A DNA stretch of 64,000 nucleotides. Origin: an uncultured Gammaproteobacteria bacterium (GTDB lineage: Bacteria; Pseudomonadota; Gammaproteobacteria; HK1). The notes beneath the pieces were generated by a model that worked only from the letters and a program-made list of their open reading frames with translations, had not been told where the DNA came from and searched no databases. Position numbers and translations under genes: made by a program. The DNA is taken from the NCBI GenBank assembly GCA_958295465.1, contig OY282353.1:1798001-1862000 (forward strand), given 5' to 3'. Shown here piece after piece: positions 1 to 2,138 of the stretch (positions are counted from its first letter, which is position 1; each line of letters opens with the position of its first letter).

Positions 1-1
1 G

Positions 2-805
2 GGAAAGGCCGGGACGCTGCCGGAAGCGAAGGTGCACGAGCTGATGTACTTCCTGCAGATTGCCGGCGAACCTTTGCAGCTCGATTACTCGGAAGGGAAC
101 GGAGGTCTTTATGCGGGAGATCTCCGCCGGGTCTTGCGCAAGATGGAAGGACATTGGATTTCAGGACGTCACAACGTCAAGGACGGATCCGGCAACCTGT
201 TCGAATTGATACCCGGAGCGGTCGAGGATGCCGAGGGTTTTTTGGTGGATCGTCCTGATACCCAAGGGCGTGTCTCCAGAGTGGGGGATTTGATGGACGG
301 GTTCGAGACGCCCTTAGGCGTGGAGCTCCTGGCGAGCGTTCATTGGGTGGCTCACAACGAACGGTCGGCGTCGGTTGACGACATTACTCGTCGTATGCGA
401 GGAGGCAGATTCTATCGCAGACAAATCGAGCAGGCATATCAGACTCTTGAGAACTTGGGGTGGCTCCACGATGAGGAAAGATCAAACCGTACGATCGACG
501 AAGAACCGGTCTCGTCCAGTGAGACGGACGTTTCTCCGAATATGGTTTCAGAGCATGGCGACGATCATCCGCACAGCGACGGTAGCTCCATCCTCATCAA
601 CGTCAACACGGCTACGGCCGATGATCTGGCAGGCTTGCCGCGCGTCGGCAGTAAATTGGCTCAAGCCATTGTCGCGCACCGGGACAGACATGGCCCGTTT
701 CGTGCTGACGAGGATCTTACCGAGGTGCGAGGCATTGGTAAGGGTCTTTACAAAGGCATCGCCCACTGGATTACCTTCGGGGAGCACGGGCGCCGGCTCA
801 TCTGA
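2..805 (+). CDS. C-terminal part of a DarG-like antitoxin fused to a ComEA-type helix-hairpin-helix domain
   Basis: The reading frame is open from base 2, so the gene starts outside the window; 267 residues are visible. Visible residues about 10–155 match the C-terminal region of DarG, the ADP-ribosyl-DNA glycohydrolase antitoxin of DarTG. Marks are the LMYFLQIAGEPL and GFETPLGVELLASVHWV stretches and a later RRQIEQAYQTLENLGW segment. The macrodomain that defines DarG would lie upstream and is not seen. After a charged linker (about 160–195), residues about 197–257 form a ComEA-like DNA-binding domain with the NVNTATADDLAGLP and EVRGIGKGLYKGI hairpins. This extension is not part of DarG proteins I know. 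A darT toxin gene would be expected upstream. The DarG part is a confident family match; the function of the fusion is inference. Confidence 0.72.
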   Translation, partial: GKAGTLPEAKVHELMYFLQIAGEPLQLDYSEGNGGLYAGDLRRVLRKMEGHWISGRHNVKDGSGNLFELIPGAVEDAEGFLVDRPDTQGRVSRVGDLMDGFETPLGVELLASVHWVAHNERSASVDDITRRMRGGRFYRRQIEQAYQTLENLGWLHDEERSNRTIDEEPVSSSETDVSPNMVSEHGDDHPHSDGSSILINVNTATADDLAGLPRVGSKLAQAIVAHRDRHGPFRADEDLTEVRGIGKGLYKGIAHWITFGEHGRRLI

Positions 806-944
806 TCGTGTGCCGGCCGTTTGTCTCATTCGGGCAGGACCGGCCTTTGATCCGTTACGCCGGGAGTCAACCCGGCCCGGCACTCTGGTCGAGCTGCCGC
901 CGGACTTCGCCGGGTGTCATCCGGATGAGCTCTCCGGCGGATAG

Positions 945-1079
945 ATGAGGTGCTTCTTCTTCGACCGCTGCCCGCTGGCGGTCGAGGGCACCTGCGACCG
1001 GGAGGACCCACCGATCCGGCGCCTCGGCGAGGGACATGCCATCGAATGCCATCGAAGCGAGAGGGAGTTCATGCACTGA
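945..1079 (+). pseudogene. Remnant: C-terminal tail of a peptide ABC transporter ATPase (OppD/DppD type)
   Basis: After an in-frame stop at 942–944, this frame reads CFFFDRCPLAVEGTCD, then a PPIRRLGEGHAIECH segment, and stops at 1077. That is the cysteine-containing oligopeptide-binding tail found at the end of DppD/OppD ATPases (Cys-x5-Cys … Cys … Cys-His spacing). No Walker motifs or other transporter parts are nearby, so it is a decayed fragment. The remaining spacer between 806 and 1131 holds nothing else I can name. Confidence 0.55.
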
Positions 1080-1131
1080 GCGGTGATGCGCGGTATTTCT
1101 CTCAAGGCAGGATCTCGCCGGGTGATTGGAA

Positions 1132-1335
1132 ATGACCATGACAGTCGAACAAGTCGAAGCGGAAGCGCTGAAGTTGCCGGGGCAGGCGCGAGCGGACTTG
1201 CCCGGGCGACTCATGCACAGCTTGACGGATGTGGCGGATCGAGGCATGGCGGAGGCATGGGCACGGAAGGCGGTACGCCGCGACGACGAGATGGAATCGG
1301 GTTCCGAAGCCGGCGTTCCCGCAGCAGAGGTCTGA
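1132..1335 (+). CDS. Putative addiction-module antitoxin (TIGR02574-like), slightly truncated
   Basis: A 67-residue protein. It starts MTMTVEQVEAEALKLPGQAR and continues through the LMHSLTD and EAWARKAVRR segments, which is the layout of the small 'addiction module component' family of antitoxins usually paired with a RelE/ParE toxin. Family members normally end about ten residues after the VPAEEV motif, whereas this one stops at GVPAAEV, so the C-terminus looks clipped. No ParE/RelE gene follows; the next gene is a glutathione S-transferase. It is therefore an orphan or decaying antitoxin. ATG 1132 is chosen over the upstream TTG at 1126. Family match is good; activity is unknown. Confidence 0.55.
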   Translation: MTMTVEQVEAEALKLPGQARADLPGRLMHSLTDVADRGMAEAWARKAVRRDDEMESGSEAGVPAAEV

Positions 1336-1439
1336 CAGAGGCTCTCGAACAGCCTCGCGGACCCCGTCGATCGGCAATATCATGTCCCGCGCCGCCGGCC
1401 ACAGTGCGCGGACGACCATTCAAGCCCGAGACCCTCACC

Positions 1440-2138
1440 ATGAACGAGACATACCATCTGATCAGCTCCGTGACCTGACCCTGGGTACAGCGCGCCGTGA
1501 TCGTGTTGCGTGCCAAGGACGTCGAGTTCGAAGTGACCTGCATCGACCTGCGCGAGAAGCCCGACTGGTTTCTCGAGATCTCTCCCCACGGCAAGGTGCC
1601 AGTGCTCTCCGTCGGCGGGCGGCCCTTGTTCGAGTCGAACGCGATCGCGGAATTCCTCGACGAGATGGTTCCCCCGCGGCTGCATCCCGAAGACCCGTTC
1701 AAGCGCGCGCGAAACCGGGCCTGGACCGATTTCGTCCCCGACTTCTCGGCAAGCCTCGGCGGCGTGTACTACGCACGGGACGAGACGGCGCTCGCCGAAG
1801 GCATGAGGATTGCGCGCGGCCGGCTTGCCAGGCTCGAAGAGGCGCTCGCCAGGGAGCGGGACAACGACGGGCCGTACTTCAACGGCGCCGGGCTCTGCCT
1901 GGTCGACGCCGCCTACGCGCCGTTCCTCCGGCGCTACGCCTTCGTCGAGACCCGGCTCGGCTGCGGGTTGCTGGACGAATTCCCGCTGGTGCAGGCGTGG
2001 TCGGATGCGCTGGCCGCGGACGAGCGGGTCATCGGCTCGGTCGCGGATACCTTCGAGCACGAGTTCGTCGTTGCCCTGCACCGGCGCGGGGCGATGGCCG
2101 CGCCGCGGTTCGGGCCGGTGTCGGACGCGGCCGACTGA
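1440..2138 (+). CDS. Glutathione S-transferase with an in-frame TGA at the catalytic Cys position (candidate selenoprotein)
   Basis: Read through, the frame gives 232 residues. It begins MNETYHLISSVT, then TGA at 1476–1478 (residue 13), then PWVQRAVIVL. In omega/beta-like GSTs this segment is 'CPxVQRAxI', so the stop codon falls exactly on the N-terminal catalytic cysteine. Homology runs on both sides without a frameshift: thioredoxin-fold signatures HGKVPVLSV and ESNAIAEFLDE, then an alpha-helical C-terminal domain with FNGAGLCLVDAAYAPFL. The only alternative start, GTG 1497, would delete strand 1 and the active site. A SECIS-like hairpin follows the TGA. Sec-containing GSTs have been reported from marine metagenomes (recalled, not looked up). 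The alternative is a nonsense mutation. The Cys-to-TGA coincidence favours selenocysteine, but selABCD lie outside the window. Confidence 0.62.
1484..1514 (+). promoter_or_regulatory. Candidate bacterial SECIS element in the GST coding sequence
   Basis: Directly after the TGA the RNA can fold as follows: 1484–1488 with 1510–1514, a bulged A1489, 1490–1492 with 1507–1509, a bulged U1506, and 1493–1495 with 1503–1505. This closes a seven-base loop, CGUGAUC. The loop begins 17 bases after the TGA and has G as its second base, which fits the bacterial SECIS rule as I recall it (G among the first two loop bases, loop about 16–37 bases from UGA). I folded it by hand. Hairpins are common in GC-rich DNA, so this is supporting evidence and not proof. 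Confidence 0.45.

Follow-up and report, generated by a model that had tools for sequence, protein, structure and literature searches.

The gene and its reading frame

The window analysed here, a 64,000-nucleotide stretch from an uncultured gammaproteobacterium, contains close to its 5' end a glutathione S-transferase (GST) gene with an in-frame TGA at a position where homologues have the catalytic cysteine, and a short hairpin follows this codon (Table 1). The TGA is codon 13, in frame with both the start and the terminal stop, and it is the only internal stop between them. In the read-through protein it lies in the motif TUPWVQRA, and the Pfam models GST_N_2, GST_N_3 and GST_C_2 matched this protein above their cut-offs, with the N-terminal matches spanning the TGA, so the frame is homologous on both sides of the codon, as the initial annotation had proposed. 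Both the thioredoxin-like GST_N domain and the helical GST_C domain were present by Pfam (over cut-offs), by the predicted model and by fold search, and the KVPVL and FESNAI motifs were retained. Solved GSTs had Cys in the column of codon 13 ('vtcpwvqr' in the alignment against 'ATCPFCHR', 'LFCPFVDR' and 'RFCPFAQR'), and eight homologues had TGC or TGT there, which bears out the claim that the TGA replaces the catalytic Cys of the motif. An in-frame UGA aligned with the Cys of homologues, one criterion for a bacterial selenoprotein, was thus found in this gene.

Table 1 Features of the Sec-GST locus (window positions, first five rows) and of the selenocysteine system elsewhere in the same genome
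Feature	Position	Strand	Remarks
Sec-GST gene	1440..2138	+	232 residues; start ATG 1440; true stop TGA 2136-2138; read-through translation
UGA codon, predicted to be read as selenocysteine 13	1476..1478	+	catalytic Cys position of CPWVQRA; TGA in 47 loci, TGC/TGT in 8 homologues
5' arm, conserved SECIS stem (predicted)	1490..1495	+	GCGCGC; 6-pair stem, pairing and compensatory change
SECIS loop, 12 nt (predicted)	1496..1507	+	starts CGUGAU, kept in 45/47 loci
3' arm, conserved SECIS stem (predicted)	1508..1513	+	GCGUGC; TTG and CGT favoured here
tRNA-Sec (selC)	188267-188358		73.6 bits; anticodon TCA; ARAGORN also calls tRNA-SeC
selD	1640262-1641215		over cut-off; longer frame with N-terminal oxidoreductase-like part
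Candidate selenoprotein, peroxiredoxin L101	G000:C1:4966768-4967136		TGA at 886; BCP-like, active-site TPGUT
Candidate selenoprotein, peroxiredoxin L102	G000:C1:2609137-2609577		TGA at 652; active-site HWUPYC

Conservation of the TGA and selection behind it

A search of the window's genome family found the gene in five genomes, its own included, each with exactly one internal TGA, and 53 loci were recovered when GTDB contigs were scanned, the majority of them in alpha- and gammaproteobacterial MAGs. After removal of duplicates, 47 distinct proteobacterial loci had TGA at codon 13 and 8 had TGC or TGT, so that both states expected for this column were recovered. The occurrence of TGA at exactly this codon in 47 loci is far beyond chance and agrees with the earlier argument that a random nonsense mutation would rarely hit it. 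No second stop occurred in the TGA loci, even at the lower end of their range, at about 57% identity; in all complete TGA genes the frame stayed open for around 218 further codons (range 213-222), and 45 complete loci encode homologues of approximately equal length. When the gene was compared with its three closest relatives, dN/dS past the TGA came to 0.20-0.24, which means purifying selection, and the substitutions were mostly at third codon positions; other disabling mutations were absent, and the relatives thus gave none of the signs of a pseudogene for which a check had been suggested. The 12 codons preceding the TGA were 83-100% identical to kin, but farther upstream the identity dropped to 25-39% in an ungapped comparison, so translation starts before the TGA. 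The motif YHLISSxT 5' of the TGA was kept in nearly all loci.

The conserved hairpin

The bacterial SECIS element is described as a stem-loop that follows the UGA closely and whose small apical loop includes a G (PMC1088965), and a 6-bp stem with a 12-nt loop behind codon 13 corresponds to this description. Across 36 distinct sequences, 98.6% of cells in this stem were paired, and RNAalifold recovered the same 6 bp. The outer pair had changed from G-C to A-U in a compensatory manner in two loci that are not sisters on the tree (L080 and L083), and the 3' side of this change turns Ala into Val in both, which suggests that pairing in the RNA is maintained at the expense of a change in the protein. 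The highest synonymous conservation in the gene was found in nine codons, 3-11 after the TGA, of which codons 5, 7, 9, 10 and 11 exceeded all 178 background columns, although the value of codon 9 should be read cautiously because this column mixes several amino acids. Codon choice over the hairpin was also biased, with TTG used for Leu in 31 of 36 cases and CGT for Arg in 37 of 47, compared with 19% and 14%, respectively, outside this stretch of the genes. For the three nearest kin, dS ranged from 0 to 0.11 over the hairpin codons and from 0.11 to 0.53 behind them. None of the Cys homologues had the CGUGAU loop start that nearly all TGA loci share. The two exceptions among the TGA loci were the sister loci L065 and L068 (L065:5025, L068:5025), which kept the TGA and lost this loop; they probably form a longer stem, possibly an alternative SECIS.

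The initial annotation had drawn an 11-bp hairpin with two single-base bulges. This hairpin, together with an outer 3-bp helix, is indeed part of the single-sequence minimum-energy fold, but it was not conserved: only 78.5% of its cells were paired, and of the 36 sequences 28 could not form pair 18-30 and 18 could not form pair 12-36. The window hairpin alone was no more stable than shuffled sequences (z -0.85). Judged by conservation and covariation, the conserved register of the putative SECIS is the 6-bp stem and not the earlier fold. Two other details were correct in both registers: 17 bases separate the TGA from the loop, and the second base of the loop is G.

Selenocysteine pathway and other selenoproteins

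The genome is a single contig of 5.68 Mb, and the search for sel genes that had been recommended as a check found the whole selenocysteine (Sec) pathway, selA, selB, selC and selD. The first three form one cluster, in which selB comes after selA and abuts the tRNA-Sec with its 3' end, and selD is located elsewhere. SelA and SelB matched NCBIfam equivalogs over cut-off, the beta-barrel and winged-helix domains of SelB were found, and SelD carries CGGC, not Sec. SelB has 738 aa, with a charged insertion between the barrel and the winged-helix domains (L009:8756-8976, inside selB) that consists of degenerate repeats spaced 27-39 nt apart.

Among the ten GST_N_3 matches in the genome, only the Sec-GST gene had a TGA; the other nine had no stop. 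Two peroxiredoxins are further candidate selenoproteins (Table 1). The idea that formate dehydrogenase explains the presence of the Sec pathway was rejected, since the matches to its family in this genome had no TGA, and the carboxymuconolactone decarboxylase family was dropped as a further selenoprotein on the same ground.

Distribution of the TGA form and the cysteine versions

Matches to tRNA-Sec were counted as real above 60 bits, weaker ones being likely other tRNAs; a 47-bit match in the window's own genome, for example, was a tRNA-Ser. By this measure, 28 of the 31 genomes that carry the TGA gene have tRNA-Sec, and none of the four that carry a close Cys version has it (p = 7e-4 by Fisher's test, with kinship left out of account). 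In the three remaining TGA genomes no tRNA-Sec above 60 bits was found, which may reflect gaps in the MAGs. The proteobacterial Cys homologues (L057, L069, L073, L075 and L088-L090) have the same length as the Sec-GST and are 47-64% identical to it, but they carry a Cys codon, all have lost the CGUGAU loop, and in most the stem is broken. The genomes without tRNA-Sec are those of L057, L069, L073 and L075. The distant relatives L088-L090 (47-48% identity, CPWVHRA) come from genomes that do contain tRNA-Sec, so they probably form a separate branch.

After masking of the Sec column, the states on the protein tree could be accounted for by three changes, and the Cys groups L057 and L073 + L075 were nested inside Sec branches, with a weakly supported backbone; this nesting is consistent with replacement of Sec by Cys after loss of the pathway. 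Because of its extreme branch, L016 was excluded when the second tree was built. A horizontal transfer linking the alpha- and gammaproteobacterial copies was not adopted, given the low backbone support, and a single gammaproteobacterial clade was not rejected (p-AU 0.40). tRNA-Sec also occurs in the related genomes G002 and G010-G012, which lack a close Sec-GST; in these the pathway is presumably maintained for other selenoproteins.

Alternative explanations of the TGA and the preferred reading

A frame interrupted 12 codons in could be a pseudogene, a GST inactivated by a nonsense mutation at codon 13. However, the TGA is common to all 47 loci over their whole range of divergence, dN/dS of about 0.2 and the third-position changes extend past it, and the sel genes are present. 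Since both the TGA and the open frame that follows it are conserved, this reading is refuted, and we regard it as extremely improbable. It is slightly less improbable, but still very much so, that the cell makes a shorter GST of 213 aa from a GTG at 1497 and leaves the 12 codons before the TGA untranslated. An open frame with this start does exist (1497-2138), and standard gene callers would yield precisely this 213-residue protein without the catalytic residue, but those 12 codons and the YHLISSxT motif are conserved among the relatives, and strand 1 of the fold would be missing together with the catalytic residue.

A changed genetic code, with TGA meaning Trp or Cys throughout the genome, has nothing in its favour apart from the open frame. 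The nine other GST matches and the formate dehydrogenase family matches contain no TGA, the Sec-GST gene itself ends in TGA, and across genomes the TGA form goes together with tRNA-Sec, so we consider the chance of it practically negligible.

In the reading we prefer, and of which we are highly confident, Sec is inserted at the UGA into a functional GST with a Cys-type (omega/tau-like) fold. SelB with Sec-tRNA(Sec) would bind the mRNA hairpin at 1490-1513, as the genes, the conservation and the covariation suggest, and the ribosome would then read the UGA at 1476-1478 as Sec at residue 13.

Predicted structure and possible reaction

In the predicted model (pLDDT 92), residue 13 lies between strand 1 (residues 5-9) and helix 1 (14-25). 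The model thus places it at the N-terminus of helix 1, where GSTs have their catalytic residue next to glutathione. The best fold matches were tau and omega GSTs, which scored equally well, and the nearest sequences were thiol-dependent reductase 1 (TDR1) and omega GSTs. Tau GSTs have Ser as their catalytic residue, so that the type of reaction cannot be read from the fold. Human omega GST (GSTO1, 1eem) and Leishmania TDR1 (4ags) share with the Sec-GST the GST fold and a catalytic residue in the same column within CPF/CPW, but theirs is Cys, not Sec, and they are eukaryotic; in the fold alignment the identity between omega GST and Sec-GST was about 24-27%.

In TDR1 and omega GSTs, thiol transfer relies on Cys. 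In addition, a tau GST has been used as the scaffold for a semisynthetic GPX-like enzyme (PMC10812501), and from these two points a GSH-dependent reduction would be expected. The selenolate of Sec13 would most likely form a selenenyl-sulfide with GSH, and the enzyme may serve thiol transfer, deglutathionylation, or the reduction of dehydroascorbate or hydroperoxides. By analogy with the Cys-type GST classes, we lean moderately towards such a reductase-type reaction over classical conjugation.

Gene neighbourhood

No gene family adjoined the Sec-GST in most loci, so the neighbourhood was rejected as a guide to the substrate. A gene with a GFA domain (glutathione-dependent formaldehyde-activating enzyme family) lies directly 3' of the Sec-GST at L079:696-1131 and in about nine other loci, and this neighbour is confined to these roughly ten. 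Compared with the close relative L041, the aminotransferase, alanine racemase and luciferase-like genes downstream are syntenic, but on the upstream side (window 1-1400) the alignment with L041 ends about 40 bases before the Sec-GST, which suggests a rearrangement or insertion upstream. Just upstream of the gene, at 1126-1335, there is a small ORF that may resemble a putative addiction-module component.

Relation to the known Sec-GST family and significance

The Sargasso Sea set yielded 15 new selenoprotein families, one of them Sec-GST with 4 sequences (Zhang, Fomenko, Gladyshev 2005, PMC1088965), and in the GOS set of 2008 the family had 12 members (COG0625/PF13409; PMC2398784). A 2026 review lists it as 'predicted with high confidence', gives MEK9676863.1 as the example and calls the functions of such families largely uncharacterised (PMC13188914), in line with the earlier remark that Sec-GSTs of marine metagenomes are little studied. 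The published Sec-GSTs are bacterial and marine, with TGA at the Cys position of the homologues and a SECIS-like hairpin downstream, all of which they have in common with the window gene. Set beside the published entries by description, this gene is a new member by the criteria used there; it does not found a new family, since Sec-GST is already listed as one.

It is conceivable, though we hold it only tentatively, that the Sec-GST is a distinct enzyme, either a GSH-dependent selenoperoxidase or a thiol reductase that works through a selenol, that it belongs with the two Sec peroxiredoxins to a small peroxide and thiol defence set for which the genus keeps the Sec pathway, and that it has a SECIS class of its own with a conserved CGUGAU-N4-UU loop. 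The published sequences of 2005 and 2008 were metagenome fragments, whereas here the gene comes with a complete genome, its full sel pathway including its own sel operon, about 50 relatives, nearby Cys versions and a refined SECIS, which makes a direct comparison of Sec and Cys forms of this enzyme possible.
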